The notes under the pieces were generated by a model. It saw only the letters and a list, made by a program, of their open reading frames with translations. It was not told the origin of the DNA and did not search any database. 22,927 nt of DNA, from positions 1 to 22,927 of IMG/VR virus record IMGVR_UViG_3300047318_000496. One strand, given 5' to 3'. Numbering within the stretch: position 1 is the first letter of the stretch; each line of letters opens with the position of its first letter. The translations under genes were made by a program, and so were the position numbers. Of this stretch, positions 1 to 21,887 are shown in pieces. The stretch comes from a virus.

Positions 1-408
1 CAGCTGCTTGCGGTCGGTGAGGTCGCACCACTCGGCGACGTAGTCGAGGGCGTCCTGTGCGAGGTACAGCTCGCGGGCGAGGCGGTCGACTTCGGCGCGG
101 GCCTCGTCGGCGGTGAGTTCGTCGTCGCTGCTGGCCGCCGGGTTGTCCGGGGCCGTCCGGGCGCCATGTCCGGGGCAGACCCACGGGTACGGGAGGAGCG
201 GGTCGGTGCAGCGGGGGCAGTCTTCGGCGTTGCCGCCGGGCGGGATGGGTCCGGGTGCGCCGTCGACGGGCGGGGTGTCCAGCATGCCGAGGGCGTACAG
301 GACACCGGACGCCGCGTGGTCGATGAGCGGGCCGTTGCAGATGGTGACGGCGTCGGCAACGGCGGCACGGATCAGGTCGGCTGCAACGAGGGTGGGCTGG
401 TCGGTCAC
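1..408 (-). CDS. Zinc-knuckle protein, N-terminal part (runs off left edge)
   Basis: The frame opens at GTG 408, whose GTGA overlaps the stop of the gene before it, and stays open for 136 codons to the window edge with strong GC3 bias, so the protein is incomplete. Residues C64, C67, C78 and H81 (CPRC then CPGH) form a probable zinc-binding knuckle; the stretch after about residue 94 is acidic and predicted helical. I do not recognise a family with a known reaction. It is the last visible member of the leftward early operon. The four-base overlap makes translation coupling to the previous gene likely. Function is unknown; a nucleic-acid or protein-binding role is only a guess from the knuckle. 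Confidence 0.7.
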   Translation of the reverse strand, partial: MTDQPTLVAADLIRAAVADAVTICNGPLIDHAASGVLYALGMLDTPPVDGAPGPIPPGGNAEDCPRCTDPLLPYPWVCPGHGARTAPDNPAASSDDELTADEARAEVDRLARELYLAQDALDYVAEWCDLTDRKQL

Positions 409-587
409 GGGGTCGGCTCCTCGGAGGTGTCCGGTCCAGGGCAGGTGCGGATGTGCGCCAGGGCGGTCTCGGTGTTCGTGGTGATGGTTCCGTTGCCGCG
501 CCGGGTGATGGCGAGGGTGATCGGGATGAGTAGCGGTGTGCGGCAGGCGGGGCAGTGGATCTCGACTGCAGTGCGGTCGGTGGCCAT
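405..587 (-). CDS. Zinc-finger miniprotein, 60 aa
   Basis: Start ATG 587 is chosen because AAAGGA lies 6 nt upstream; longer in-frame starts have no ribosome site and would run through the hairpin at 606-630. C12 and C15 (CPAC) and H45 and C49 (HIRTC) make a plausible C-x2-C / H-x3-C zinc site around a basic, threonine-rich middle. The stop overlaps the GTG of the next gene by 4 nt. Product unknown; this type of small zinc-knuckle protein recurs across the window. Confidence 0.68.
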   Translation of the reverse strand: MATDRTAVEIHCPACRTPLLIPITLAITRRGNGTITTNTETALAHIRTCPGPDTSEEPTP

Positions 588-4730: not shown

Positions 4731-5047
4731 CAGGCCACGGCTCCCCTCGGCTGGCTGTCCCTGGTCTCGGCCTGGTGAAGGAGGTCGAGGAGTGCGGGTC
4801 GTACGGGGCTGGTGTTGATGGCGCCGGAGGCGAGGGTCGCCGGGGGTACGAAGCCGGTCCAGTTCTCGGGGGTGGCGAACTTCATGGGCGGTTCGGTGAG
4901 CTTGGCGGCGATGTCGGGGTGGGCGAGGACGGTGGCGCGGCGGCGGGTGTTGCGGGTGGCGGCGGCGCGGGTCTGGTCCTTGATGAAGGCGGTGAGGTCG
5001 TTCTGCTGGCGGAGGGCACGGATGTCGTCTTCGCTGATGTCGGTCAT
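4730..5047 (-). CDS. Hypothetical protein downstream of helicase loader, 105 aa
   Basis: ATG 5047 overlaps the helicase-loader stop (ATGA). The N-terminal 55 residues are charged and helical (TDISEDDIRALRQQNDLTAF, then basic RRRATVLAHPDIAAKL); the rest is loop-like. No domain recognised. Its place between the loader and the HNH nuclease suggests a replication accessory role, which is inference from position only. Confidence 0.7.
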   Translation of the reverse strand: MTDISEDDIRALRQQNDLTAFIKDQTRAAATRNTRRRATVLAHPDIAAKLTEPPMKFATPENWTGFVPPATLASGAINTSPVRPALLDLLHQAETRDSQPRGAVA

Positions 5048-5742
5048 GCGGCGGCCTGGCGGCGGCGGTCGTCGCCGGTGATGACGACCCGGTCGCACAT
5101 CTCGATCAACCGGGATGCGACGCGGTCTCCGACGCGGTCGGCGAGCTGCTTGGGCAGCACGTTGGAGGTCATCAGCGTCGGCAGCTGGTTCTCGTAGCGG
5201 TGGTTCACCAAGCGGAAGTTGATCTCTTCGGTCCACTCGCTGGTCTTGGCGGCGCCGAGGTCGTCGACGAGGAGCAGCGGGGCGTGGGCGTACTTGCGGA
5301 ACTCGGTCTCGGAGTCGATGCCGGCGCGGGGGCGGAGGGCGGCGTACATGTCGGCGCTGGAGGTGGCGGTCCAGCGGAGGCTGATGCCGGTGGGGGCGAG
5401 GTGCCGCAGCGCGCCGTACGCCTGGTAGGTCTTCCCGACGCCGGTCGGCCCGAGGAGGAGGAGGGAGCGGCCGGTGGTGATGGCGGGGACGATGCGGCGG
5501 CCAGAGTGGGCGCGGGTGGTGGCGATGAGGTTGTCGGCCCAGTGCTGGACGTCGGGGTGGTCGGCGTTGGCTCGCTGGTAGATGAACGGGATGTCGTGGT
5601 TGGCGTGGTCGATTTCGCGGCGGGCGGTGGCGGGGCGGTCGTAGGGGTCGCCGGTGATGTCGTTGATCGCGTCGGGGGTGAGCTGGTGGGCGGTGAGGAT
5701 GGCCTGCCAGTTGGTGAGGTCGACGGGGGTGAGGTGGTCCAT
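5044..5742 (-). CDS. DnaC/IstB-like AAA+ helicase loader
   Basis: A 232-aa AAA+ ATPase: Walker A GPTGVGKT at 98-105, Walker B LLLVDDLG at 156-163, sensor-1 TSN at 192-194 and a candidate arginine finger in DRVASRLIE (R208/R211). The N-terminal 90 residues are helical and probably contact initiator or helicase. Proteins of this family load the replicative DnaB helicase at the phage origin, like lambda P or host DnaC. ATG 5742 has AGGAG 5 nt upstream; the ribosome site overlaps the stop of the initiator gene, coupling the two. Order initiator-loader with origin repeats in the initiator matches lambda O-P. Confidence 0.88.
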   Translation of the reverse strand: MDHLTPVDLTNWQAILTAHQLTPDAINDITGDPYDRPATARREIDHANHDIPFIYQRANADHPDVQHWADNLIATTRAHSGRRIVPAITTGRSLLLLGPTGVGKTYQAYGALRHLAPTGISLRWTATSSADMYAALRPRAGIDSETEFRKYAHAPLLLVDDLGAAKTSEWTEEINFRLVNHRYENQLPTLMTSNVLPKQLADRVGDRVASRLIEMCDRVVITGDDRRRQAAA

Positions 5743-5750
5743 GGGTGCTC

Positions 5751-6617
5751 CTACAGGCTTTCGAAGTAGGCGGACTGGTCGGTGGGGTTGGTCCACGGCT
5801 GGTAGTTGCCGCTGGCCACGGCCTTGAGCTGTGGCGCCGACCCGGCGGGGACTTCAGGCAGGCCGCCCCAGCCCGGAAGGAAGTAGCGGGCGGAGTAGGG
5901 CGGGTTCTTCGAGCTGCGCCAGACGCGCTCGGCGTGATCGACGAGGACGGGCACGCTGCGGGTGGCGACGAGGCCGGCGAGCTTCTTCCAGTCGGCTGCC
6001 TGGAGCTGCCAGCTGATGCGCATGCCGCGCAGGGTCATCTCGTCGATGAGCGGCTGGACGATCTTGAGTGCATCGACCTCTCCCGCTGCCGGCTGATCAA
6101 CGGCGCGGGGGGGATGTGGTTGAACATCTACATCGTGGTTTAGCTGGTCTTGGTAGTGGGGTCCGGTTTCCGGACCCCTAGGGGTCTCGTTTTCGGACCC
6201 CTGGGGTCCGGTTTCCGGACCCCTAGCGTTTTCGCTACCGGTCCGGTTTCCGGACCCCTGCGCGGCGCTAGGGGTCTCGTTTCCGTACCCCTGCGATACG
6301 GCTAGAGGTCCGGTTTTCGGACCCCTAGAGCCACGCTCCGGGCGGACATAACCGACGGCGCCGGGCACCCGGTAGAGCGCCGAGCGGGTGCCGCGCGCCT
6401 CCTCCAGGAGCTCCAGCTCGCCGGACTTCACGAGTGCATCGACGGACTTGATCACCGAGGAGCGCGCGGCGTTGCTGAAGTGCGTCAGCTCGGCCGTGCT
6501 TGCCCGGACCGTGCAGTCCGGCCCCGTGATCCAGTTGGCGACGGCCAGCATGATGTGTCGGCCGGTCCCCTTGGACTGGGAGTGGTTCCACACCCAGTAC
6601 ATAGCGTCGATGCTCAC
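5751..6617 (-). CDS. Replication initiator (lambda O-like), winged helix plus C-terminal domain
   Basis: A 288-aa protein from GTG 6617. Residues 1-85 look like a winged helix (MYWVWNHSQSKGTGRHIML, then ASTAELTHFSNAARSSVIKS and a beta wing LELLEEARGTRSALYRV). Residues 98-154 are a low-complexity linker with repeats RGPxTGP, GNETP and SENETP, encoded by six palindromic DNA iterons. Residues 180-288 form a second helical/aromatic domain (WQLQAADWKKLAGLV ... SKNPPYSARYFLPGWGG). This plan, DNA-binding N-terminus, origin repeats inside the gene, partner-binding C-terminus and a helicase loader just downstream, is that of lambda O. The specific family is not certain. The start has only a weak purine-rich ribosome site. 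Confidence 0.78.
   Translation of the reverse strand: MSIDAMYWVWNHSQSKGTGRHIMLAVANWITGPDCTVRASTAELTHFSNAARSSVIKSVDALVKSGELELLEEARGTRSALYRVPGAVGYVRPERGSRGPKTGPLAVSQGYGNETPSAAQGSGNRTGSENARGPETGPQGSENETPRGPETGPHYQDQLNHDVDVQPHPPRAVDQPAAGEVDALKIVQPLIDEMTLRGMRISWQLQAADWKKLAGLVATRSVPVLVDHAERVWRSSKNPPYSARYFLPGWGGLPEVPAGSAPQLKAVASGNYQPWTNPTDQSAYFESL
6157..6326. repeat. Six palindromic iterons: putative replication origin inside initiator gene
   Basis: Six 23-bp units, each arm AGGGGTCCG, 5-nt GTTTT or GTTTC, arm CGGACCCCT, with few changes: 6157-6179, 6180-6202, 6202-6224, 6237-6259, 6270-6292 and 6304-6326. Start-to-start steps are 23, 22, 35, 33 and 34 bp, close to two and three helical turns. A mini version AGCG-TTTT-CGCT (6225-6236) sits between units 3 and 4. 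The units encode the repetitive linker of the initiator. By analogy with lambda ori, they are probable binding sites for that protein and mark the origin. Confidence 0.75.
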
Positions 6618-8401: not shown

Positions 8402-8847
8402 GAGGCAGCCCGCCCTTCACCGACGAGGGCATGGACGGTCCACCAGGTCAGGCCCTCAGCCGTGGCGATCGCGTTGATGGTCTCGCCCGTCTGGTGCCGC
8501 TCGTGCAGGGCGCGGCCGATCTCCTCGCGGCGGCCGTCGAAGTCCTGCGGCTTCGCGCCCGCCCTCCGCTGGCGGGTCTTGCGGCGCAGGTGTGCGGCGC
8601 GTTCGTTCTCGTCGATGCCGCCCCAGATCCCGGCGGGCTGCCGGGTCTGGATGGCCCAGGTCCCGCAGTCCATGACGACGGGGCAAGTGGCACAGATGGC
8701 CTTGGCCTTCTTGGCGGCGGTGACGGCGGCGGGGTTTTCGCCGATGGGGAACCAGAGTTCGCCGTCCATGTCGCGGCAGGCAGCGTCGTGTCGCCAGTCG
8801 GTGGTGGCGGTGCTGCCGGTGGTGGTGTCGGGCGCGCGGCCGGCCAT
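8398..8847 (-). CDS. WhiB-family iron-sulfur regulator with C-terminal HTH
   Basis: 149 aa from ATG 8847, which shares a base with the methyltransferase stop (TGATG). C24, C52, C55 and C61 (AICATCPVVMDC) are the cluster ligands; GIWGGID (73-79) is the canonical turn, followed by a basic patch (LRRKTRQRR). Residues 108-146 (EEIGRALHERHQTGETINAI, ATAEGLTWWTVHALV) add a helix-turn-helix. The protein probably binds the host sigma factor and DNA together, so it may redirect host RNA polymerase. It precedes a second, diverged WhiB-HTH gene, suggesting duplication or complementary roles. Confidence 0.88.
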   Translation of the reverse strand: MAGRAPDTTTGSTATTDWRHDAACRDMDGELWFPIGENPAAVTAAKKAKAICATCPVVMDCGTWAIQTRQPAGIWGGIDENERAAHLRRKTRQRRAGAKPQDFDGRREEIGRALHERHQTGETINAIATAEGLTWWTVHALVGEGRAAS

Positions 8848-10637
8848 CACGCCACCGCCCTTGAGGTGTGGAGGACGGCTCGCAACCGCAACCCGATCCA
8901 GGCTCCGACCTGTTGGGATACGGCGTTGCCGAACCCGTCCACCTGGTTGCGGGCGCTACCCCAGACGGTGAAGGTGCCGCGGTGTTCGCCGAAGTCGACG
9001 TCGAAGCCGCAGCCTCGGCCGACCTCGTGCGCGGCCATCATCCGGAAGTAGCAGTCCTCAAGCGGCAGATCTGCGAGAGCGGCCCGCCACTGGGCCATGA
9101 GCAGCGCTGTCGTGTCGTGCGCGGTGAGGGTGCCGAGCGGGTCGGTGAGCGGGTGCGGGGCGGTCTCGTTCCCGGTGGAGCCGTTCTGCTTGAACCACCC
9201 GGCGGCCGAGAGCAGGCCCGGGATCTGGTCCGAGGTGACTGTCGGCATCGCCTCGCCGTGCACCGCGGGGAGGGTGTTCTTCCGGTACGGGATGATCCCG
9301 GAGGACACCACGGCGAGGGTCTCCGAGCCGACCTGGGTGGGGAGCGGCTCTCCGGCGCCACGGGGGGCGCCCTGGAAGTTGTCCACCGCGAGCGCCATCG
9401 GCGGGGTGACCAGGCCCGTGGTGTTCGTGGCGGGCTGGGCCCACAGCGGCTGGTCGAAGCCGCGGGAGCGGCAGTTGGAGCCCGGACGCTCGAATGTGTT
9501 CCCCGCTGCCGCGATGATCGCGCCGGTCGACAGGATGGACGTCTCCTGCTGGCTGGTCTGCGTTGCCATGGGCTGCCACGGGTGTCGCTCGGAGCCGTGT
9601 ACGCCCTTCGCCGGCATGAGGATCGCGGGGAAGTCGGCGAACCGCGACCGGCAGCGTTCAGCGCGGGCCATGGTCGACCGCGCGAGCGGCCCGACGAACC
9701 CGTCCGCGAACGTTTTGGCCGGCTTGTCGCCGATGCGGGTCCCGAGGTTGCTCAGGTCGAGCGCGGCCAGCGACGGCGTCATCGGCGGGACCACCGGAGT
9801 ACGGCACGACGGGCACCGGTACTCGTACTGCTTGCCGTAGCGCACGGACCCGGTCGGCGGGATGCCGGTTTTCCACGTCCACACCGCCTCGACGTCCTTG
9901 TCGCAGCGGTGGCAGCGTGCCACCGGCCGGTGGTCGAGGTCGGGGGTGGGGATGGACTTGTCCCAGAAGGCGATGTACAGGCGGTCCCGGGACTGCGGTA
10001 CGCCGAAGAACTGCGAGTTGAGGTACAGCACCTTGTGCCGGTAGTTGAGCAGGTCGAACTGGTTGAGCCACCACCGGTAGGTAGCGCCGTCGCCGACCTT
10101 CGGGCGTCCGGGAATCGCCGGTCCCCACGACGTCAGCTCGGTCGTGCACTCGATGAGGATCAGCCGCGGGTGGTGCTGGGCGGCGTAGTGCAGGACGCAG
10201 TTCGCGGTCGCCCGGTCCCGCTCGGACCGCGTCACCCGCTCCTCGAAGTCGGGGTCGTCCAGCTCGAACAGCGTCAGGCCCTGCTCGTATGCCTTGATCG
10301 TGTTTGCCTGCGAGTGGTTGACGCAACTCACGCCCGCGACCAGGAGGTCGGCGGCGGGAAGGTCTCGGGCGGAGTGGTAGTCCGCTGCCTCGGGGTCGAC
10401 CAGGTCGGCGATCCAGTGTTCGGCGTTCGGGTGGTTCGCCTCGTGGACCTCGACCTTGTAGGCGTTGTGGTTCGCGGCCATGATCGTGGTGAACCCGGCG
10501 AGCTCGATGCCGCGGGTGAGGCCCCCGAAGCCGGCGAACAGGTCGACTGCGGTCGGGTCGTCGTGGCGGAACCGACGTCGCTTGGTGGCCGGCCGGTGCG
10601 TGGCGGTGCGGATCTTCTTGGCGGATGCGCGGGACAT
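8847..10637 (-). CDS. Variant DNA cytosine-C5 methyltransferase
   Basis: 596 aa. Motif I VDLFAGFGGLTRGIELAG (31-48) binds S-adenosylmethionine; motif VIII QSRDRLYIAF (215-224) and the late GFGNAVSQQVG (motif X) are clear. Motif IV reads AGVSCVNHSQAN, so catalytic C105 is preceded by Ser rather than Pro; motif VI is IECTTE (E163), not ENV. A zinc ribbon (C242, C245, C275, C278) is inserted before the long target-recognition region. It lacks a restriction partner and sits between RusA and WhiB, so it is an orphan phage enzyme, perhaps protecting phage DNA or marking it. The motif changes leave open a modified chemistry. ATG 10637 shares a base with the RusA stop. Confidence 0.85.
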   Translation of the reverse strand: MSRASAKKIRTATHRPATKRRRFRHDDPTAVDLFAGFGGLTRGIELAGFTTIMAANHNAYKVEVHEANHPNAEHWIADLVDPEAADYHSARDLPAADLLVAGVSCVNHSQANTIKAYEQGLTLFELDDPDFEERVTRSERDRATANCVLHYAAQHHPRLILIECTTELTSWGPAIPGRPKVGDGATYRWWLNQFDLLNYRHKVLYLNSQFFGVPQSRDRLYIAFWDKSIPTPDLDHRPVARCHRCDKDVEAVWTWKTGIPPTGSVRYGKQYEYRCPSCRTPVVPPMTPSLAALDLSNLGTRIGDKPAKTFADGFVGPLARSTMARAERCRSRFADFPAILMPAKGVHGSERHPWQPMATQTSQQETSILSTGAIIAAAGNTFERPGSNCRSRGFDQPLWAQPATNTTGLVTPPMALAVDNFQGAPRGAGEPLPTQVGSETLAVVSSGIIPYRKNTLPAVHGEAMPTVTSDQIPGLLSAAGWFKQNGSTGNETAPHPLTDPLGTLTAHDTTALLMAQWRAALADLPLEDCYFRMMAAHEVGRGCGFDVDFGEHRGTFTVWGSARNQVDGFGNAVSQQVGAWIGLRLRAVLHTSRAVA

Positions 10638-11137
10638 CAGGCGCTCACCGCCTCGTATGAGAGCGGGTCTTCGCCGGGCTGAAGGCTGCGGACGACGAGG
10701 ACGAGCTGTCCGCCCTTGACGATGTCGCCGAGCCGCATGTCCGGGCCGAGGAGGTGTGTGTGGTCGTCGTCGTCCAGGACGCCGGCGTCGACGATGCCGT
10801 CGACCGCGGCCTTGAAAGAGGGATACCAGTTGGCGGGGTCGGCGCGGCGGCGGGTCGGCGGGTGGAGCACGCCGAGGATGTGGGCGCGGGCGAAGAGCGG
10901 TCCGGGCTTGGCCGTGGCGAGCGCGGCCATCAGGGCGGGGCTGTCGCTGACGGCTTCCATGGCGGCGGCGCGCAGGTCGGCGGTGAGCTTGGCCTTGAGG
11001 CGGTAGTGGGGGCGCTGGTTGGCGTTGAGGAGCCTCAGGCCGGCGGGGAGGGTGATGGTGTGGAGGCGGCGGGTGGGGCCCGCCCCCGCGTGGGGGGAGC
11101 ACGCGGGGACGGGAGTCTCGATGGGCAGGGCGGTCAC
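10637..11137 (-). CDS. RusA-like Holliday-junction resolvase
   Basis: 166 aa from GTG 11137 (GTGA overlap). N-terminal strand and LLNANQRPHYRLKAKLTADL (37-56) match the RusA substrate-binding start; RRRADPANWYPSFKAAVDGI (97-116) followed by DAGVLDDDDHT supplies acidic D100, D113 and D122-D125 with K109, the metal and catalytic set of RusA. RusA dimers cut four-way junctions; in phages they clear branched DNA before packaging. It works naturally with the exonuclease/annealing pair upstream. The usual D-x-DN is D-P-A-N here, a mild variation. Confidence 0.82.
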   Translation of the reverse strand: MTALPIETPVPACSPHAGAGPTRRLHTITLPAGLRLLNANQRPHYRLKAKLTADLRAAAMEAVSDSPALMAALATAKPGPLFARAHILGVLHPPTRRRADPANWYPSFKAAVDGIVDAGVLDDDDHTHLLGPDMRLGDIVKGGQLVLVVRSLQPGEDPLSYEAVSA

Positions 11138-11583
11138 TTCGCACCACCGTTCCGGGCGGCGCGGCGGGCCTGCCACTCCTCCTCGGTCAGGTACTGCACC
11201 AGCTTCGGTACGGGCTTCCTCCGGGGCTTGCGCTCTGCCCCGTCCCGGGCGATGGCCCGCTCGCGCTGGTATTCGGCGGCCCCGGCCTTGCAGTCCGCGC
11301 ACGGCTCCTCGCCCCGGTAGCGGTGCTGCTTGTAGCCGGAGAGCTTGCCGTGCGCGATCGGCTTGAGCCGCGAAGAGTCCTGCACGGCCTGCCGCTGCTG
11401 CACCGCCTTGGCCTTGGTGTTGGCCCGACGGCATGCGTCGTCGATCGGCTCGCCCTTGCGGACGTGCCGGTTGTAGGCGGATTCCGTGCCGCAGTCAGCG
11501 AGGGGGCGGCCGGTGCGCTTGGGCTCGGTGAGGCCGAGCTGGGTGATGAGCTCGTCAAGCTGGTCGTCGGTGAGGTCGGGCAT
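11134..11583 (-). CDS. Protein with two tandem G-x-HxRxGE-Cys modules, 149 aa
   Basis: ATG 11583 is placed by the purine-rich GAGGGGGA upstream. Two similar modules follow an acidic N-terminal helix: module 1 at 31-60 (CGTESAYNRHVRKGEPIDDA, then C51) and module 2 at 78-110 (HGKLSGYKQHRYRGEEPCAD, then C98). Shared pattern: C/H-G, Y, H-x-R-x-G-E, Cys. Module 2 keeps C95-x2-C98. The C-terminus is basic. I know the module from other actinophage small proteins; function unknown, DNA or RNA binding is plausible. Confidence 0.72.
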   Translation of the reverse strand: MPDLTDDQLDELITQLGLTEPKRTGRPLADCGTESAYNRHVRKGEPIDDACRRANTKAKAVQQRQAVQDSSRLKPIAHGKLSGYKQHRYRGEEPCADCKAGAAEYQRERAIARDGAERKPRRKPVPKLVQYLTEEEWQARRAARNGGAK

Positions 11584-11585
11584 GG

Positions 11586-11912
11586 TCAGTCCCCCTCGGT
11601 GGTGGTCGGAATGTGCGCCCCGCATCCGGCGTCGGCGCAGGTCGCGGACCCGTCCGGGTGCACGATGACGGCCACGGTCTGGTGCTCGTCGGGGCAGTAC
11701 CGGAAGGCCATGACGACCAGCCCGAGCGGCGTTTCGACGGTCGTGTGCGCGTCGTAGAACCCGGCGTACTGCACGGGTGCGGGCTCGGCCCGGGGCACGT
11801 CGGCCGGGCGGTTCGTACGCAGCCGGCGGGCGAGGGCCTGAAGCCTCGGCAGCGCGGGCGTGATCCCGAAGACGAGGGCCGCCGCGCCGATGAGGGGAAG
11901 GTCGGGGTTCAT
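11586..11912 (-). CDS. Membrane-anchored small protein with Cys pair, 108 aa
   Basis: ATG 11912 overlaps the coiled-coil gene stop (ATGA). Residues 5-21 (LPLIGAAALVFGITPAL) are a probable membrane anchor followed by Arg-rich residues, so the C-terminal domain is probably cytoplasmic. C73, C92 and C97 with H77 and H85 (YCPDEHQTVAVIVHPDG ... CADAGCGAH) suggest a zinc site. No family recognised. Confidence 0.68.
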   Translation of the reverse strand: MNPDLPLIGAAALVFGITPALPRLQALARRLRTNRPADVPRAEPAPVQYAGFYDAHTTVETPLGLVVMAFRYCPDEHQTVAVIVHPDGSATCADAGCGAHIPTTTEGD

Positions 11913-12253
11913 TCGGTCACCTCGCCCTTGTCGGCGGGGCGCGGGCGGACGGTCAGCAGACCCACGTCACCGGTCCTGGTGGCGTCGGCGAGCTGCTTCT
12001 GCGTCACGGCCAACTGGCGGCGGAGAGCAGCCAGCTCGCGGGGCACATCCGGGGCGCCCGTGCGCGCCTGCTTCAGCTCCCGCTCCAGGCGCACCACGCG
12101 GCTGGAGAGCTCCACCTCGCGCGGGGTGACACCGACACGGGGCGCGGACGCCGTACGGAGAGCCGTCTCCAGCTCGGCGATGCGGTCCAGGCGGACAAGG
12201 TCGCGGGCTTCGAGCTCGGCAACACGGGCACGGAGCTGACGTCGAGTCGCCAT
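11909..12253 (-). CDS. Coiled-coil protein, 114 aa
   Basis: ATG 12253 shares a base with the exonuclease stop (TGATG). Residues 4-33 (RRQLRARVAELEARDLVRLD ...) and 48-95 show heptad patterns of Leu/Val/Ala typical of a parallel coiled coil. No catalytic motif. Likely oligomeric scaffold or partner-binding protein. Confidence 0.7.
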   Translation of the reverse strand: MATRRQLRARVAELEARDLVRLDRIAELETALRTASAPRVGVTPREVELSSRVVRLERELKQARTGAPDVPRELAALRRQLAVTQKQLADATRTGDVGLLTVRPRPADKGEVTE

Positions 12254-12984
12254 CACGCCTGCACCCCCTCGCCGGCAGCCGGGATCAGCGGCCACTCCGG
12301 CGCGCAGTACGCGCCCTCCTCCGTCTTCCGCAGGTGCGCCTGCAGCCCGGCCTGGTGCTCCGCGCGCCACGCCTGCTGAGCCGCGAACAGTTCGGGCGGC
12401 GAGTAGCCGTTCAGGCGCGGGAACCGCTCGAACTGCGCCTCCGCGATCAGCAGCGCCGCCAGCGCGTCCGCCTCGGCGGTGTGCCAGTCCTTCAACTCGA
12501 CGCCATACCGCCCGCAGGTCGGCTTCAGCTTCCGCTGACCAGCGCCCTTGACGTACCGGTCGAACTGCTTGTCCAGGACGATCGGATCGACCAGCGTCAC
12601 CGGCTCCGCGCCGAGCCGCTCCCCGACGGTGGGCAGGCCGTGGCGGATGAGCTCGTAGTGGAGGATCGACCAGTCGAAAGCCTGGTTGAACGCGATCAGC
12701 GGCATCCGAAGCGTCAGGGCCGTGGTGAGGTGTCCGGCGATCTCGTCCAGTGCGGTCTTCGGCTCGACGCCTTCGGCCTGGGCCCTGGCGTCGGTGATGC
12801 CGTGGATCTCGGAGACCTCGGCCGGGATGGGGACGCCGGGGTTGATCAGCCACGAGAAGGGGCGGTCTTTGCGGCCGGGGATACGGACGATGAACGCGGC
12901 GGTGACGATGCGGTCCTCGTGGACATCCGTACCGGTCGTCTCCGTGTCCCAGGACGCCTTCCAGACGTCAGCGAAGGCGTTCAC
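12253..12984 (-). CDS. DnaQ-like 3'-5' exonuclease
   Basis: 243 aa from GTG 12984 (GTGA overlap). Exo I SWDTETTG gives D13 and E15; Exo II AFNQAFDWSIL gives D104; Exo III WHTAEADALA gives H168 and D173, so it is the DEDDh class with all key residues. HGITDARA (61-68) is also typical. The fold removes nucleotides from 3' ends of single-stranded DNA. Its place right after the ERF annealing protein suggests a part in recombination or replication proofreading. A separate C-terminal tail of about 55 residues has no known domain. Confidence 0.87.
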   Translation of the reverse strand: MNAFADVWKASWDTETTGTDVHEDRIVTAAFIVRIPGRKDRPFSWLINPGVPIPAEVSEIHGITDARAQAEGVEPKTALDEIAGHLTTALTLRMPLIAFNQAFDWSILHYELIRHGLPTVGERLGAEPVTLVDPIVLDKQFDRYVKGAGQRKLKPTCGRYGVELKDWHTAEADALAALLIAEAQFERFPRLNGYSPPELFAAQQAWRAEHQAGLQAHLRKTEEGAYCAPEWPLIPAAGEGVQA

Positions 12985-13760
12985 TGAGCACCCCCGGCAG
13001 TGCGCTCCTTGCCGATGCGGACGACCATGTCGCCGATCTGCTCTTCGTCGCCGACCTCGTTCGTCACCAGCGCCCCGAGCTGCCGCGTCTGCTTCAACTC
13101 AAAGTGGATCTGCCGCAGACGGCCGGAACTGGTGCCCGGATTCGCGACCTCATCGACGTACGACACAGCCGGCCGGACCGGAGCCTCACCGCGCTCGATG
13201 CGATCGGAGTCCGGCTCCTTGTCGTGCGTCGGCGTCAGACCGAACGACAGCAACAGCGTCCGCAGCGCAACGCTCTGCGCCTTCGTGGTGCTCTTGTCGG
13301 CCGTGTCGAGAGCCTCGCCCTGCGTCTGGAGGGTGAGCGTGTCGCCCTTCGGCCCCATGATTTCCCAGGTGACCAGGACAGAGCACTCGCGCATCTTGCT
13401 GCCGGACTTGGTGGACTTCTCGCCGTACTCGGCTTCAACCTTGACGGGCATGACGTTCACGCCGTGCTTGAGCGTGACCGGGCCGAAGACGTTGACGACG
13501 GTGTCGACGCCACGGAAGTTGAAGCGGGTGCCGGCGCCGCTGTACTCCTCGCGCTTGCCGATGGCGCGGATGTCCTTGCGGACGCGGAGCCATGCGATGT
13601 GGACGGGCACCATGTCGGGGTCGTCGTCGCCCGGCTCGTAGTCGGCCATTGGGTCGACGGCTGGGGCGGTCGGCGGCTCGTATGCGGGGCCGGGCTCGGT
13701 GCCCGGGGCGGTGGTGGTGCGGCCTGCGGCGGCAGCCGCGCGCTCAGCGATGGTGGTCAC
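12981..13760 (-). CDS. ERF-family single-strand annealing recombinase
   Basis: 259 aa from GTG 13760 (GTGA overlap). After a disordered N-terminal 50 residues the ERF signature follows: VPVHIAWLRVRKDIRAIGK, FNFRGVDTVVNVFGPV (80-95), KHGVNVMPVKVE, then GEALDTADKSTTKAQSVALR (148-167) and TPTHDKEPDSDR. ERF proteins form rings that anneal complementary strands, as in P22. The exonuclease directly upstream would supply the 3' tails. The C-terminal 60 residues vary and may bind a partner such as SSB. Confidence 0.87.
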   Translation of the reverse strand: MTTIAERAAAAAGRTTTAPGTEPGPAYEPPTAPAVDPMADYEPGDDDPDMVPVHIAWLRVRKDIRAIGKREEYSGAGTRFNFRGVDTVVNVFGPVTLKHGVNVMPVKVEAEYGEKSTKSGSKMRECSVLVTWEIMGPKGDTLTLQTQGEALDTADKSTTKAQSVALRTLLLSFGLTPTHDKEPDSDRIERGEAPVRPAVSYVDEVANPGTSSGRLRQIHFELKQTRQLGALVTNEVGDEEQIGDMVVRIGKERTAGGAQ

Positions 13761-14788
13761 GCGGAGAACTCCTCACGGACGGAACGGGGGATGTTGATGC
13801 GGCGGCTGACGCGGTCCTCGACGCACGCCTCGTAGGCGTCCGGGAACTCCTCGCGGAGCCGGGCACGGTCGACGTACTCGCGGGACTCCTCGTCGTAGGA
13901 GAAGGCCGGGCGGTCGTTGTAGAACGCCGCCTCACGGCCGCCGAGGTGGCCGATGAGCTTGGCCTTCGCCGCGTTCTTGGCCTTCTTCGCGGCGGACTCG
14001 GCGGCGGCCTGCGCGATGTAGTCGGCGAGGTCGTCCTGTGCGTCGCCGTCGCGGTCGATCTCGACGTAGCCCGAGCGCTCCGGATGCAGCTGCTCGTACA
14101 GATCGAGCAGCGGGCCCGGCTCCTCGTCGCCGGTCAGCAGCGGCGGGCGCCGGTCGGCAATCTGCTGCCACGCCTGCGCGCCGGCCGCGCGGAGGTCGGC
14201 GATCAACTGGGCGTGGTCGGCGGCGCGTACGACGAACTGCCGGTAGTCGTTACCGCCGATCAGCACCGCGACGTGGATGTGGTCGTAGCCGGTGGTGTCG
14301 GCCTGCCACAGGGTCTGCACGAGGACGTCGTCAGCGACGCCCTTGCGGAACTGGCCGGCCTTCATCTTGTCGCGGCACTTGATCTCGACGGCGCACCGCT
14401 CGGTGACGTCGGTGGAGGTCGGGCAGCGAAGGACGCGGCGGTCGAGGGTGCACATCTCCCACGGCCGGTCGGTGTTGGCGACGAGGCCGACGCGCTGGAC
14501 GACGCTGCGGTTCCTCCGCGCCCACTCGCGGGCGACGGTGTCCTCGATGGCCCGGCCCCACAGGGCGGGTTCGGAGTCGTCGCCTTCGAGGGGCAGTCCG
14601 CCGGTCTTGTCGTGCCAGACGGAGAGGGCGTTGCCGTAGCGGCTGATGCCGAGGATCGCGGCGACGTCGGAGCTGCCGAGGCCGTTGCGGCGGGCGGTGA
14701 GCCAGTCGGCGCGGTCGGCGGTGGCGGGGAGGATGAGGCGGCCGGTGGGGGTGACCCGGCGGCCGGTGGCCTGTGTGGCGGTCGTCAT
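13757..14788 (-). CDS. YqaJ-family phage recombination exonuclease
   Basis: 343 aa from ATG 14788 (TGATG). The lambda-exonuclease/YqaJ fold shows WLTARRNGLGSSDVAAILGI (29-48), GRAIEDTVAREWARR (E82), D116 in CTLDRRVL, E135-x-K137 in AVEIKCRD, and Q162 in TLWQADTTGYDHIHVAVLIG. D116, E135 and K137 are the catalytic PD-(D/E)xK residues. The enzyme resects 5' ends of double-stranded DNA, giving substrate for the ERF annealing protein next door. C-terminal part is helical with an Ala/Lys-rich segment. Confidence 0.88.
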   Translation of the reverse strand: MTTATQATGRRVTPTGRLILPATADRADWLTARRNGLGSSDVAAILGISRYGNALSVWHDKTGGLPLEGDDSEPALWGRAIEDTVAREWARRNRSVVQRVGLVANTDRPWEMCTLDRRVLRCPTSTDVTERCAVEIKCRDKMKAGQFRKGVADDVLVQTLWQADTTGYDHIHVAVLIGGNDYRQFVVRAADHAQLIADLRAAGAQAWQQIADRRPPLLTGDEEPGPLLDLYEQLHPERSGYVEIDRDGDAQDDLADYIAQAAAESAAKKAKNAAKAKLIGHLGGREAAFYNDRPAFSYDEESREYVDRARLREEFPDAYEACVEDRVSRRINIPRSVREEFSA

Positions 14789-15066
14789 CAGGCGGTGCCG
14801 CCCTTCGCGGTGTAGGTGTAGAAGCGGCGGGCCGGGGCGTCGTGCCGCTCCAGGTGGCCGCCGGAGTGCAGGGCTGCGAGGTCGCGGCGGATCGTCGAGC
14901 GGTAGATGTGCCGGTGGCCGAGGAGGCGCCGGTAGGTGTGCTTGACGAGGCCGACGGTCCACTCGCCGCGTTCGGTGCGGATGGTGTGGAGGAGGAGCTG
15001 TCGGCGGTCGATCCGGCGGGGGCCGGCGGCCGGGACCGAAGTCCCGGCCTGCGCGGTGTTCGTCAC
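14788..15066 (-). CDS. Winged-helix-like protein, 92 aa
   Basis: GTG 15066 overlaps the upstream stop (GTGA). Residues 18-75 (RIDRRQLLLHTIRTERGEWT, VGLVKHTYRRLL, STIRRDLAALHSGGHLERH) look like a winged helix with recognition helix STIRRDLAALHSG and wing residues 72-87. No effector domain. Probably a small DNA-binding regulator or a structural helper for the recombination genes that follow. Confidence 0.72.
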   Translation of the reverse strand: MTNTAQAGTSVPAAGPRRIDRRQLLLHTIRTERGEWTVGLVKHTYRRLLGHRHIYRSTIRRDLAALHSGGHLERHDAPARRFYTYTAKGGTA

Positions 15067-16040
15067 AGGGCATCGCCCCGCTCTTCCGCCTCGACGGCGG
15101 CGGTGTTGCGGGCGTCGTCCTCGGCGTCGAGCCGGAACTCGGCGTCGCGGTCCATCTCGTACAGCTCGTCGGCGCTGTGCGCGTCCTCGATGGAGCCGTG
15201 GTCGTCGTAGTTGTCGTATCCGGCGACGGCCCACTGTTCGGTCTGGCGGTCCCAGATCACGGACCAGGCGGTGTGGTCGGTGAGGGTGCCGTCGATGTCG
15301 ATGCCGACGTGCATTCCGGCGGCGGCGCTGGCGTTGAGGGCGTCGGCGATGGCCTGCCAGTACGAGCGCTCGGTGCGGGGTGCGGGCTGGGTGGTCTCGC
15401 CGACGTCGGTGATGTCGGTCCAGCCGTCGAGGTCGTCCGAGTCCTCGGGCGCCCACGTGCTGATGCAGGGCTCCCTGCGCCAGCCGAACGCGATCGGGTA
15501 GCTGCCGCCCGGTGCGGTGGCGACGTGCTCGACGAGGAACTCGATGAGGTGGCCGTGGTGCTGGCGGGTGTAGGTGTGGTCGGGCTGGAAGAAGTTGGCG
15601 GGCTGGGTGGTCTCGCCGCTCGGCGCGGTGACCGTCCCGACCTGCCCGGCGTCGGCCATGCGGCGCAGCTCGTCGCCGATGGCCCTGGCCATGGTGTGCG
15701 GGCCGATGATGCCTGCGGCCTTCATCGCGTCCCAGTCGGGGAAGCGGCCGAGGAAGGTGGCCGCGATGCTGGCAGCCTCGTGCAGTACCTCGTTGCGGGT
15801 GACGACCCCGGCCACGTTGTCCGGGCGGACCGCGCCGCGTGCGAGCTTCGACGCCATCGCGTCAACGGCGTCGGCCTGCGCCTGGCGCTGCTTGCCGCCA
15901 GCGGAGCGGAACTCCTTGGCCTTCTTGCCCAGCCACGCCACGATCTCAGCGTCGCGCTCGGTGATCAGGGCGTCGGCCAGCCGGTTCGCTTCCGCCCGGT
16001 CGATGACGGTCGAGTTGATCAGGTCGTCGCGGGCGGTCAT
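15063..16040 (-). CDS. Modular hypothetical protein with FFQPDHTY domain, 325 aa
   Basis: ATG 16040 overlaps the upstream stop (ATGA). Three parts are visible: a helical N-terminal region (1-135); a module after GETTQPA containing FFQPDHTYTRQHHGHLIEFL and YPIAFGWRREP (142-212), of a type I recall in many Streptomyces phage proteins; and after a second GETTQPA (214-220) a C-terminal region with GIDIDGTLTDHTAWSVIWD (246-264). DIDGTLTD resembles HAD motif I, but no other HAD motif is clear, so a phosphatase call is not justified. The C-terminus is very acidic. The two GETTQPA copies are encoded by an exact 21-bp direct repeat, suggesting module shuffling. Confidence 0.72.
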   Translation of the reverse strand: MTARDDLINSTVIDRAEANRLADALITERDAEIVAWLGKKAKEFRSAGGKQRQAQADAVDAMASKLARGAVRPDNVAGVVTRNEVLHEAASIAATFLGRFPDWDAMKAAGIIGPHTMARAIGDELRRMADAGQVGTVTAPSGETTQPANFFQPDHTYTRQHHGHLIEFLVEHVATAPGGSYPIAFGWRREPCISTWAPEDSDDLDGWTDITDVGETTQPAPRTERSYWQAIADALNASAAAGMHVGIDIDGTLTDHTAWSVIWDRQTEQWAVAGYDNYDDHGSIEDAHSADELYEMDRDAEFRLDAEDDARNTAAVEAEERGDAL

Positions 16041-18418: not shown

Positions 18419-18604
18419 TCAGGCGGCGACGTCAGCGGCCTCTGCCGCAGTGATGGGCCGGCCGCCCGGATTGGCGAAGATCAGCCGCAACCTCGCCAGG
18501 AGCTCGGGCGTCGGGGGTGCGGCTGCAATGGCCCTGCGGGCCTGTGCGCGGGCGTCCTCGATGGCGGCGTCACCGAGGATGGCGCGGCGCTCTTCGGGGG
18601 TCAT
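18419..18604 (-). CDS. Small helical protein cotranscribed with Cro-like gene, 61 aa
   Basis: ATG 18604 overlaps the Cro-like stop (ATGA). The peptide is Ala/Arg-rich and helical (EERRAILGDAAIEDARAQAR, PELLARLRLIF), ending in AAEAADVAA. As the second gene of the lytic-side operon it could assist or oppose the switch proteins; no motif shows this. Confidence 0.65.
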   Translation of the reverse strand: MTPEERRAILGDAAIEDARAQARRAIAAAPPTPELLARLRLIFANPGGRPITAAEAADVAA

Positions 18605-18855
18605 ACGGTGACCTCGATGCCCTGATCTGCATCGATGTCGGTGTCGTCGTCCGTTTCGGTCATCAGGTGCTCGACGCTGACTCCGTAGGCCCTGGCGAAG
18701 CGGAGGATCGAATTTAGGTCAGGCTGTGCTTCCTGCTTGAGGATGCGGTAGACGGAGCTTTCGGCCACTCCAGTGCGCTTGTGGATGGCGTATCCGCTCG
18801 TGTCGCCCTTAGTGCTAGCGACCTTGCGGAGCGTGTCGACGCACAGGCGGGACAT
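18601..18855 (-). CDS. Cro-like XRE-family regulator, 84 aa
   Basis: Helix-turn-helix residues 18-62 (DTSGYAIHKRTGVAESSVYR, ILKQEAQPDLNSILRFARA, YGVSVEHLM) are of the XRE/lambda-Cro type; the tail is acidic. ATG 18855 follows an 11-nt perfect match to the 16S anti-Shine-Dalgarno (GGAGGTGATCC), the strongest ribosome site in the window. An operator half-site (CTCCCT, 18863-18868) overlaps that site. It is first in the long leftward operon and faces the repressor-like gene at 19090, so it probably sets the lytic state. Confidence 0.82.
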   Translation of the reverse strand: MSRLCVDTLRKVASTKGDTSGYAIHKRTGVAESSVYRILKQEAQPDLNSILRFARAYGVSVEHLMTETDDDTDIDADQGIEVTV

Positions 18856-18893
18856 GGATCACCTCCCTTGAATGCTGGTGAGGGAGGGTTTCG

Positions 18894-18905
18894 CCCTCAC
18901 GAGGG
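18894..18905. promoter_or_regulatory. Operator A (CCCT-N4-AGGG)
   Basis: CCCT CACG AGGG, a short palindrome at the start point of the leftward early promoter. Same spacing as operators B and D but shorter arms. Confidence 0.5.
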
Positions 18906-18907
18906 AG

Positions 18908-18936
18908 ACATTACGCGCAATATCCCTCCCTCGCAA
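18908..18936 (-). promoter_or_regulatory. Leftward early promoter
   Basis: On the minus strand TTGCGA (18931-18936), 17-bp spacer, TAATGT (18908-18913). Start point about 18901, giving a 46-nt leader to ATG 18855. One operator covers the -35 (18926-18941) and another the start point (18894-18905). Confidence 0.6.
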
Positions 18937-18941
18937 GGGAG
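18926..18941. promoter_or_regulatory. Operator B (CTCCCT-N4-AGGGAG)
   Basis: CTCCCT CGCA AGGGAG, perfect 6-bp arms, overlapping the -35 box of the leftward promoter. Confidence 0.65.
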
Positions 18942-19034
18942 CTTGTGTGGTGGGAGGTAATATTTTGGAATCAGACATGTGTTCGGCTACTGACGTACGC
19001 TGCGGAAACAGTCGACCATGGCTTGACCTGCATG

Positions 19035-19050
19035 CTTGCGCGCAAGGGAG
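19035..19050. promoter_or_regulatory. Operator C (one good half)
   Basis: CTTGCG CGCA AGGGAG: the right half CGCAAGGGAG is identical to operator B, the left half is degenerate. It lies just upstream of the repressor promoter. Confidence 0.45.
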
Positions 19051-19053
19051 GTC

Positions 19054-19083
19054 GTGACTACTCCCTCGCTAGGGAGTTATGGT
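19054..19083 (+). promoter_or_regulatory. Rightward repressor promoter, leaderless
   Basis: GTGACT (19054-19059), 18-bp spacer containing operator D, TATGGT (19078-19083), then 6 nt to ATG 19090. No ribosome site, so the mRNA is probably leaderless. Confidence 0.58.
19061..19076. promoter_or_regulatory. Operator D (CTCCCT-N4-AGGGAG)
   Basis: CTCCCT CGCT AGGGAG, arms extended by one more pair (A 19060, T 19077). It fills the spacer between -35 and -10 of the rightward promoter, so bound protein would block RNA polymerase. Confidence 0.65.
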
Positions 19084-19089
19084 GCGTCC

Positions 19090-19533
19090 ATGACCGCCGA
19101 CGCACCCCCCACGCGCGCGCAACGCTTCGCCGCCGCCGTCAAACCCGCAGCACACCGGGCTGGTTACACCGGCCACGGCGCGAACGCGCGCCTCGCCCGC
19201 GATACCGGGATCACCGAGAGCACCATCAGCCGCATGATGCTCGGCCAGACCATTCCGGACCCCAAGTTCTTCGAGCCGCTCGCACGCGTTCTCGACCTCA
19301 ACCCGCTCGAACTGCTGGTCGAAGCCGGAATCATCTCAAACGAAACCCTTCGGTCACTGTCCGAAACTCGGCCCTCACAGGTACGCTCACCTTTCACCCC
19401 TGAAGAGGCGGCGACCGAACTGGGCTTCACCGATCCGGTGAGTCGGGAGATGTACTTCGCCATGGTCGAACGCCTCAAGCGCCGCCCGCACGATCAGACA
19501 GGCAGCGAGGGGGGCGCGGCGGCGGAGGCATAG
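19090..19533 (+). CDS. XRE-family repressor-like protein, 147 aa
   Basis: Residues 11-75 contain a helix-turn-helix (NARLARDTGITESTISRMML, GQTIPDPKFFEPLARVL, DLNPLELLVEAG). After residue 95 there is a second helical region (FTPEEAATELGFTDPVSREM) that may dimerise. ATG 19090 is chosen because a -10 box ends 6 nt before it; a longer frame to 19036 would run through the operators. It diverges from the Cro-like gene across shared operators and is coupled to a membrane protein gene, as expected for the lysogeny regulator. No autocleavage (LexA-type) domain is present, so release would not depend on RecA cleavage of this protein. Confidence 0.78.
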   Translation: MTADAPPTRAQRFAAAVKPAAHRAGYTGHGANARLARDTGITESTISRMMLGQTIPDPKFFEPLARVLDLNPLELLVEAGIISNETLRSLSETRPSQVRSPFTPEEAATELGFTDPVSREMYFAMVERLKRRPHDQTGSEGGAAAEA

Positions 19534-19534
19534 C

Positions 19535-20104
19535 GTGGGGGTGCAGGCCATGACGGGAACGAAGATGTCGACGGCAATGCGGAGCTTCACCGCACTCGCA
19601 ATCACACTCTTCGCCAGCGGAATCCTCACCACCCTCGCCGCAACGTGGGCCGACCATCCAGCCCAAGCCGCCGGCGGCAGCGCCGTTACCGTGACCGCCC
19701 TCACGATGTTTGCACTCCCCTGCATCCGGCGGTGGATCCTCGAAGCAGGGGACCTGCGCGACGTCGCCCTCGGCCAGATCGGCGAAGCCCAGAAGGAAAC
19801 GGCCCGCGCGCTGGCCGCCCAGGCCGCCGTCGAGGTCGAGCGGGGCCGCATGCGCCGGGACGCCGCCTACGACGCGCAGCGCAGCGCAGCCGCGATAGCC
19901 ACCGAGAAACGACGGCTACAAGAACAGTTCGACGCAGACCGCACAGAGATCATGTGCAACGCCTACGAGGCCGGCGTCCGGCACGCACTAGCCGGTGTCC
20001 TTGAGGCCCCTGAGCGGCCCGGAGGCAGGTCAGTGGTGCCGTTTCCGTCGCCCGCCGCACGCAGCGAGCAGCTCCAGAAGCGCGGCGTCAGCCATCCTTC
20101 CTGA
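19535..20104 (+). CDS. Two-helix membrane protein with cytoplasmic coiled coil, 189 aa
   Basis: GTG 19535 has GGAGG 6 nt upstream and starts 1 nt after the repressor stop, so the two are one operon. Membrane helices at about 16-36 (SFTALAITLFASGILTTLAA) and 47-65 (GGSAVTVTALTMFALPCI) are followed by a long charged coiled coil at 70-150. Cotranscription with the repressor implies expression during lysogeny; membrane proteins in that position often exclude superinfecting phages, which is inference here. The last 17 nt overlap the convergent integrase gene. Confidence 0.75.
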   Translation: MGVQAMTGTKMSTAMRSFTALAITLFASGILTTLAATWADHPAQAAGGSAVTVTALTMFALPCIRRWILEAGDLRDVALGQIGEAQKETARALAAQAAVEVERGRMRRDAAYDAQRSAAAIATEKRRLQEQFDADRTEIMCNAYEAGVRHALAGVLEAPERPGGRSVVPFPSPAARSEQLQKRGVSHPS

Positions 20105-21851
20105 ACCCCGGCTCGCCCACGAACGACATCGTGATGCGGCCGGGCAGGATCTTCTGCGCCCCCTTCACGTGGGCGTGAAACAGGCGGATCGTGACGATCA
20201 TCCGCATCGCGGAGCGTTTCTGCTCCGGCAGCAGCGCGTTCCACTTCTGCTCGGCGTCCGGGTTCCCGACAAGATCGCGCAGTAGCGGCGGCACACTCGC
20301 CGGGCCCCGATCAGCAACCTCTCGCAGCTCGTCGATCTGCGGCGTCAGCATCGTCTCCATCGCCGCTAGCGACATCACCGACAGCTCCGGCGTGCCGTCC
20401 GCCCTGAACGTGGTGGCGGCCGTCCGCGCCTCCTGCAACTGGTTCTCCAGCGCGAACAGCCGGGTCCTCGCCGCCTTCACCTCGGCAATGTCCTGGTCCA
20501 CCTGGAAGGCAGCCGAAGCCGCCGGCGACCGAAGCCAGCCGATGATGGCCTCCTCGACGTACGCCTCGAACTGCGGAGCGCGAATTCCGGTGTCCCACAC
20601 CGTGGAGCACAGGTAGTAGTGCGTGCCATTGCGCTTGGCCGTTTTGATGAACGGGGGCGGCTCGCCGACGAGGAGCGCCAGCGACGGCTCGTGACGTTCG
20701 ACCTCGTCGCGCAGGGCCCGCAGCGTGTCGTCGTCCACCTCCCCGTGCCCTTTCCGTACGACACGGCGCATCTGCGGCAGCACTGGGCGCCACCCTGCTT
20801 GGTACATCGCGCGCACGGCGTGGCACCGCTCATCGGCGTACACGACCTCGGGATCGGGCGCCGGGATCTCGACCGGGCGCACTCGCCTGCCGGCGGACAG
20901 GATGCCGTCCTCTTCGTGCTCTCCGCACAGGGGGATGTAGGTGAGGAGGTGGGCGAGCCGGGATAGCCGGTGGGTGAGGCGGGTCGGGTCGGCGAGGATC
21001 GCCTGGGCGCGCTGGTAGGTCTCCGGGAAGTCGTCGTCTTCGCCGATGGGGGGCCACTTGGCGTCGCGGACGATTTTCCCTTGATGGACGCGTTTCCCGT
21101 TGTAGGCGGGGTTCCGAAGCACCGTGCCGACGCGCTCAACGGTCCATGGCCGGCCCCCCGGGTGCCAGGCGGCCGGGTTGCTGTTGAGCCACTGCGCGAT
21201 GCCGTACAGCGTCTGTCCAGCCACCAGCCGCGTGAACATCTCGGCGACGATGGGCGCCCGGACAGGGTGTCGAACCTGCTCGACGAGCTCGCCGGTTTCC
21301 GGGTCGTAGCGTCGTTTGTAGCCGAACGGGGGGCGGCCGCCTGGCTTGCCCTGATTGGCGAGCTGGCGCTGCGTACGGACCTGCCGATCGCGGATGCCTT
21401 CGGCTTCGTCTTCGGCGTCGAGGGCGTCCCGCGCAGTCGCCTTTCGGTCCTCGCGTTTGCTGAGGTCGTAGACGGTGCCGTTGTAGCAGAGCAGGACGTT
21501 CGCCTCGTAGCAGGCGTTGCGGAGGCGTACGTAGACCCCGAGGTCGCGGTAGTAGCGGGAGGCCTCGAAGGCGACGACGATGCGGCACTCCCGGGCCCGG
21601 ATGCCTTCGAGCATGGCTTCGAAATCGTCGCGGCGCTTCTTGGCGTGGCGGCTGGCGGAGCGGCCGACGTCCTTGTCGAAGACGCCGACGATCGGGAAGC
21701 TGTGCCGCTCGCAGAGGTCGCGGCCTTCGTGGAGCTGCCCGTCGACGGAGCGGCCTTTGCCGGTGGGGTCGTGGCTGTTGCGGCCGTAGAGGAAGGCGTT
21801 GAAGGTCTCGCCGGGGTAGACCAAGTGCAGGTATGCGGGGTCGACGGGCAT
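20088..21851 (-). CDS. int: Large serine recombinase (phage integrase)
   Basis: 587 aa from ATG 21851, chosen because a -10 box ends 6 nt before it; ATG 21875 lies inside the attachment-like dyad. The resolvase domain (17-165) has nucleophile S26 in LYGRNSHDPTG and the arginines of VGRSASRHAKKRRDDF. The recombinase domain follows (GKPGGRPPFGYKRRYD at 169-184, LRNPAYNGKRVHQGK at 245-259), then a zinc-ribbon region and a coiled coil (about 447-512). The zinc ligands are unusual: C309-x2-H312 and C415, with about 95 residues between them. This family integrates phages by cutting attP and attB with a 2-bp stagger. No excision factor is recognised nearby. Convergent overlap with the membrane gene. 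Confidence 0.93.
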   Translation of the reverse strand: MPVDPAYLHLVYPGETFNAFLYGRNSHDPTGKGRSVDGQLHEGRDLCERHSFPIVGVFDKDVGRSASRHAKKRRDDFEAMLEGIRARECRIVVAFEASRYYRDLGVYVRLRNACYEANVLLCYNGTVYDLSKREDRKATARDALDAEDEAEGIRDRQVRTQRQLANQGKPGGRPPFGYKRRYDPETGELVEQVRHPVRAPIVAEMFTRLVAGQTLYGIAQWLNSNPAAWHPGGRPWTVERVGTVLRNPAYNGKRVHQGKIVRDAKWPPIGEDDDFPETYQRAQAILADPTRLTHRLSRLAHLLTYIPLCGEHEEDGILSAGRRVRPVEIPAPDPEVVYADERCHAVRAMYQAGWRPVLPQMRRVVRKGHGEVDDDTLRALRDEVERHEPSLALLVGEPPPFIKTAKRNGTHYYLCSTVWDTGIRAPQFEAYVEEAIIGWLRSPAASAAFQVDQDIAEVKAARTRLFALENQLQEARTAATTFRADGTPELSVMSLAAMETMLTPQIDELREVADRGPASVPPLLRDLVGNPDAEQKWNALLPEQKRSAMRMIVTIRLFHAHVKGAQKILPGRITMSFVGEPGFRKDG

Positions 21852-21857
21852 GCGTTC

Positions 21858-21887
21858 ACGATAGCGGCAGACCATAACCCCTGACAG
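21858..21887 (-). promoter_or_regulatory. Integrase promoter, leaderless
   Basis: On the minus strand CTGTCA (21882-21887), 18-bp spacer, TATCGT (21858-21863), 6 nt, ATG 21851. The -35 lies within the attachment-like dyad, so integrase binding there could repress its own gene. Confidence 0.5.

Follow-up and report, generated by a model that had tools for sequence, protein, structure and literature searches.

The initiator gene of the Streptomyces phage analysed here very probably contains a replication origin of the lambda O kind, as judged from sequence comparison and from analogy with known phages. The window, a virus record of 22,927 bp (IMGVR_UViG_3300047318_000496, positions 1 to 22,927), was taken up because a first-pass annotation had read six repeats within a gene as a lambda-O-style origin. 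This reading is supported by the co-variation of the repeats with their presumed reader, by the retention of the palindromes among relatives and by an A+T-rich tract in the position that it has in lambda. Features of lambda-O-type origins present in the window are repeated, initiator-sized sites within the initiator coding sequence, an A+T-rich tract adjoining these iterons and a helicase-loader gene (phrog_50) directly downstream of the initiator (Table 1).

Table 1. Features of the putative origin locus in the window; iterons are numbered in gene order and given as 17-bp cores.
Feature	Position	Strand	Remarks
DnaC/IstB-like AAA+ helicase loader	5044..5796	-	phrog_50 1e-33, PF01695 2e-11
Initiator gene, 288 aa	5751..6617	-	phrog_6643, AlphaFold2, relatives in SV1, Picard, Eklok
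A+T-rich tract, candidate unwinding element	6115..6159		adjoins last iteron; stability and relatives
Iteron 6	6160..6176		centre 6168
Iteron 5, degenerate	6183..6199		centre 6191
Iteron 4	6205..6221		centre 6213
Iteron 3	6240..6256		centre 6248
Iteron 2, degenerate	6273..6289		centre 6281
Iteron 1	6307..6323		centre 6315
Initiator codon 56 (Ile)	6450..6452	-	position counted in codons from 6617

In profile searches, residues 1-155 of the initiator (N-terminal domain and linker) matched phrog_6643, a family annotated as 'replication initiation protein' (5e-26). A weaker match was to phrog_391 ('O-like', 2e-8), and Pfam gave none. AlphaFold2 models a winged-helix domain at residues 1-90 (to about 92; pLDDT 92-98), a disordered linker at residues ~98-171, whose codons hold the iterons and the A+T-rich tract, and a helical C-terminal domain at residues 180-251. 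The phrog_6643 match and the modelled winged helix thus bear out the description of the protein as a winged-helix initiator. Among solved structures, no useful sequence relatives were found and a fold search against the PDB gave generic winged helices only (E above 0.02); a search of a viral fold library led to phage helix-turn-helix proteins, including one annotated as 'protein O' and one 'replisome organizer'.

The six palindromic iterons (+ strand, GGTCCGGTTTCCGGACC) occupy nucleotides 292-461 of the 867 in the gene, or codons 98-154, with the copy number and positions first proposed. Symmetry is near-perfect in four copies (6-7 of 8 arm positions), whereas one arm is degenerate in the second and fifth (4 of 8); the term 'six 23-bp palindromes' was thus right in number but slightly generous in symmetry. 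By rising coordinate, their centres lie 23, 22, 35, 33 and 34 bp apart. The proposed steps of about two and three helical turns therefore hold for the clade of the window (22-23 and 33-35 bp), but only in part for the family, which also has steps of 17, 30 and 36-37 bp. A single helical period for all steps was only a partial fit (R 0.48 near 11.25 bp), with the 17- and 30-bp steps out of phase. With up to 2 mismatches allowed, the window yielded no further iteron copies.

A tblastn search yielded initiator matches in 14 Streptomyces phage records, among them SV1, Picard, Mojorita, ToastyFinz, SoJo and Eklok. The initiators of these six phages (phrog_6643) are true homologues with 30-36% identity and in-gene palindromic arrays of their own, which differ from that of the window in having GGGCCG or GGTCGG as half-site. 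Among viral and bacterial contigs, the first query matched 86 loci, and three further queries added more. About 80 relatives, comprising nearly all close ones, have an array of 4-7 iterons in the same part of the gene (~nt 280-470); in a few distant relatives (L091, L097) no array was seen. Spacing is fixed for each clade (34-33-35-22-23 in that of the window, 36-30-24-46-23 in that of SV1, 37-30-35-46-23 in that of Eklok and 17-17-23-22-23 in a third group) and half-sites are clade-specific (GGTCCG, GGGCCG, GGTCGG, GGTACG, GGGTCA, GCCCCG), with both arms of the iteron copies changing together between lineages. In the complete Eklok genome every motif match falls within the initiator gene, and in that of SV1 all do except two one-mismatch sites. 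Two relatives (L063, L109) have a mirror-symmetric array, 24-30-42-30-24, with every copy in one frame.

The linker is also repetitive as a peptide (GPETGP, GPKSGP), as would be expected of a Gly/Pro/Glu repeat that leaves repetition of the DNA as a by-product. The chance of this being the explanation is close to nil: it is contradicted by the reading frames, by synonymous shuffling and by conservation at third codon positions. The six copies in the window lie in two frames (0, 1, 1, 0, 1, 0), and therefore a single DNA motif is translated as GPETGP in one place and as GSENETP in another. Eklok iterons likewise encode unlike peptides (RSGIPDT and ESRTQP), and across relatives the copies fall in two or three frames. 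The repeat-family score of the array, 23, was approached neither by synonymous-codon shuffles that preserve the protein (n=60, maximum 13) nor by codon-order shuffles (n=60, maximum 9); the array is thus destroyed while the peptide stays the same. Further, the linker is modelled as disordered.

Codon-position identity, computed in three groups with equal iteron spacing, points the same way. At third positions the iteron arms are 0.91-0.93 identical, compared to 0.57-0.76 in the spacers and 0.52-0.78 in the N-terminal domain. Arm conservation is about equal at all three codon positions, and in the window clade it is highest at the third. In the SV1 group, which consists of more closely related members, arms and spacers differ less. 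Given these third-position identities in arms and spacers, what selection has conserved in the sequences compared is the iteron DNA and not the encoded peptide. Palindromes are kept while the frame and sequence of the peptide change, the reverse of what the first-pass annotation had named as evidence against its reading, and its view that the linker is repetitive because the DNA is agrees with the mixed frames and the shuffles.

To see which part of the protein is linked to the iterons, we correlated distances between half-sites with those between protein domains. In 68 genes, half-site distances correlated best with the N-terminal domain (0.53), ahead of the C-terminal domain (0.29) and the loader (0.28). 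In partial correlations only the N-terminal domain kept its link (0.48, permutation p 0.001; C-terminal domain −0.18, loader 0.09), and the C-terminal domain and the loader stayed linked to each other (0.61). Four relatives (L027, L028, L029, L104) combine an N-terminal domain and iterons of the window type with a different C-terminal domain. In this family, then, the iterons follow the N-terminal domain and the C-terminal domain follows the loader.

In an unbiased comparison of all N-terminal domain columns with all half-site bases, the top pair, at about twice the score of the next, was residue 56 and the third base of GGN (position −6, 6 bp from the centre). Residue 56 lies within the modelled recognition helix (residues 52-65, AlphaFold2). 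Arginine at this position goes with G, valine, isoleucine, leucine or threonine with T, and glutamine with C. In a tree computed with the helix columns left out, Arg56 has arisen four times independently, each time with G. Agreement between Arg56 and a purine is found in 79 of 81 genes, a count that leaves out L154 and four rows of uncertain register; the next best column reaches 81%. Of the held-out genes with Arg56, all seven have a purine at that base, which is mostly G in six, and of those with Val56 or Thr56 three of five have T, the exceptions being L177 and L154. Eklok and L177 break the rule, as does L154, whose array is weak. Five supported independent changes of residue 56 agree with the rule and none opposes it (two-sided p 0.0625, a value limited by their number). 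Glu56 occurs with C in L175 and L179, which was noticed afterwards and is thus not independent of the making of the rule. That the repeats co-vary with the N-terminal domain, initially put forward as a check, is accordingly seen both in the partial correlation and in this residue-base pair.

Each palindrome could presumably fold in RNA, and C-terminal domains have been exchanged just downstream of the array, so that the palindromes might be mRNA hairpins or a hot spot for module exchange and not protein-binding sites. We consider this highly improbable, since neither RNA hairpins nor recombination by itself would be expected to produce co-variation with one residue of a recognition helix or a spacing fixed in each clade. 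A further reading, for which we see about even chances, is that the N-terminal domain together with the iteron array is a self-contained cassette that can be exchanged, with origin specificity determined by residue 56 (Arg for G/A, Val/Ile/Leu/Thr for T, Gln/Glu for C).

The A+T-rich tract begins where the array ends. In all 71 genes compared, the 40 bp after the last iteron have a GC content below the mean of their own gene (mean deficit 17.4 points), and no GC dip precedes the array in those genes. In the window, the tract lies within the least stable stretch of the initiator gene. Of all 45-bp stretches in the window, just 0.3% are less stable, and several of these are located either at the ends of the listed repressor and integrase genes or between those ends. 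The same script applied to lambda O showed this order and polarity too, with the iterons at nt 349-433 and then a tract 25.6 points under the GC mean of the gene. Both this tract and the residue-56 link are additional to the claims of the first-pass annotation.

All of the co-variation is evidence of binding, and would fit equally well if the array were an autoregulatory operator or a copy-control site for the same protein, with the origin elsewhere; plasmid iterons can also act in copy control. We regard this as unlikely: the array lies ~300 bp inside the gene and not at its promoter, in all 71 genes compared an A+T-rich tract of very low stability comes directly after it, and its layout equals that of the lambda origin. 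GC skew, suggested at the outset as a check on an origin, shows no switch at 6.2 kb; in compact phages, GC skew mostly tracks gene direction.

The neighbouring gene is a DnaC-like loader as first described (phrog_50, 1e-33). Its listed GTG start at 5796 overlaps the initiator gene, and an in-frame ATG at 5742 is the likelier start. Initiators of the same type are followed by three kinds of partner, namely a DnaC/IstB loader (window), phrog_8924 (SV1 and SoJo, which differ from the window in this respect) and a DnaB-like helicase (L077; phrog_19, 5e-91); the loci compared were L006 3904-4635, L009 3894-4583 and the downstream genes of L077 and L079. Because one initiator type occurs with these three partners, phrog_8924, which has no assigned function, is a candidate for a helicase loader of an undescribed kind.

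In-gene origins are established in lambda and Stx phages (PMC7466680) and at SPP1 oriL (PMC6316719). The lambda O gene resembles the window initiator in having its iterons mid-gene (nt 349-433 of 900; window 292-461 of 867) and in several frames, with an A+T-rich tract directly downstream and then the helicase loader gene (PMC7466680). It differs in having four 18-bp iterons of unrelated sequence, and P (phrog_109) as loader in place of a DnaC/IstB AAA+ protein. The two initiators have only the mixed family phrog_391 in common, which they match with different halves; hhalign gave a probability of 0.3 for the N-terminal domains, and phrog_277 is matched by lambda O but not by the window protein. 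By these comparisons, the window initiator is not a member of the lambda O family by descent, but would work like one.

Gene 38 of the Bacillus phage SPP1, with oriL, is likewise similar, with direct repeats and an A+T-rich unwinding element within the initiator gene and a loader, gp39 (PMC6316719). In contrast to the window, where a search for a further array found none, SPP1 has another origin, oriR; it also encodes a helicase of its own. In the Staphylococcus phage 80alpha an in-gene origin is inferred; ORF20 cannot be complemented in trans, and a DnaC-like gene, ORF21, comes next (PMC5499656). This order of an initiator with embedded origin and a DnaC-like loader is that of the window, a likeness in gene order to a Firmicute phage. 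Gene 18 of the Salmonella phages P22 and L contains lineage-specific iterons inside the coding region of each initiator (PMC8022706); these differ from those of the window, and the partner gene encodes a DnaB-type helicase, not a loader. For mycobacteriophage RepA, an origin has been suggested within or just upstream of repA, but no repeats were found in the neighbouring region (PMC7157519).

By analogy with lambda, SPP1 and 80alpha, the initiator gene would embed the theta-type replication origin of the phage. The winged-helix domain would bind as dimers to the six palindromes, and the base 6 bp away from an iteron centre would be recognised through residue 56 in the recognition helix. The resulting complex may strain and open the A+T-rich tract, as in lambda and SPP1 (PMC7466680, PMC6316719), whereupon the C-terminal domain would hand over to the DnaC-like loader. 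The loader, in turn, would deliver the DnaB helicase of the host to the opened strand, and replication would start here.

Among more distant proteins, several share parts of this arrangement. Helix-turn-helix initiators of this more distant kind likewise have in-gene repeats in the corresponding position, some of which are direct repeats. Many distant phage initiators whose helix is SERSVQRDI (L217-L267) contain direct repeats around CAGGGGTGACA in ~21-bp steps (gene nt ~265-350). A gene of Darolandstone and Raleigh (L011, L013, 2443-3393) has the C-terminal domain in common with the initiator (45-46% identity), next to an unrelated N-terminal domain and without a comparable palindromic array; its annotation as 'mucin-2' looks wrong. 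The conjugative Streptomyces plasmid pMDJK44.2 encodes an initiator relative (26% identity, L278 20508-21344) directly before an AAA+ loader. It has no array but one perfect inverted repeat with 17-bp arms (20911-20947); because the pair of initiator and loader persists here without it, the array is not a feature of every member of the wider family. Plasmid relatives were also considered as proof of autonomous replication, which neither plasmid-type record provides, since one, of 20.9 kb, is a phage fragment and pMDJK44.2 lacks the array.

As regards the wider genome, two copies of the locus, separated by 57,480 bp, are present on a near-identical contig of 68,059 bp (IMGVR_UViG_3300046499_000422), an arrangement suggestive of a genome of about 57.5 kb that is circular or terminally redundant. 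At up to 3 mismatches, the only further iterons in this contig were the second copy of the same array. Positions 8847-15073 and 18601-21875 of the window encode a RecE-like exonuclease, an Erf-like annealing protein, a cytosine-5 methyltransferase, two Cro/C1-type repressors and a large serine integrase, a gene set that is the early region of a temperate phage.

In line with the first-pass annotation, we found no described Streptomyces phage origin of this form in the open-licence literature, which is weak evidence of novelty, and the annotation tables of related Streptomyces phages that we examined contain no origin feature. Origins of this kind are already known from lambda, P22, L, SPP1 and 80alpha, and since other phages have in-gene origins, existing ideas are not overturned; the most interesting new element is the residue-56 rule. 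The array provides a concrete and testable candidate origin for a large group of Streptomyces phages, the vector phage SV1 among them, for which we found no earlier origin description. Natural variation in the family yields a residue-to-base rule for origin recognition by the initiator. The sharing of one gene by site and reader makes this family a natural experiment in the joint change of initiator and origin, and means that it could supply narrow, non-interfering replicons for Streptomyces. If the cassette reading is true, these lineages would hold a ready set of mutually orthogonal origins whose compatibility is predictable from sequence.
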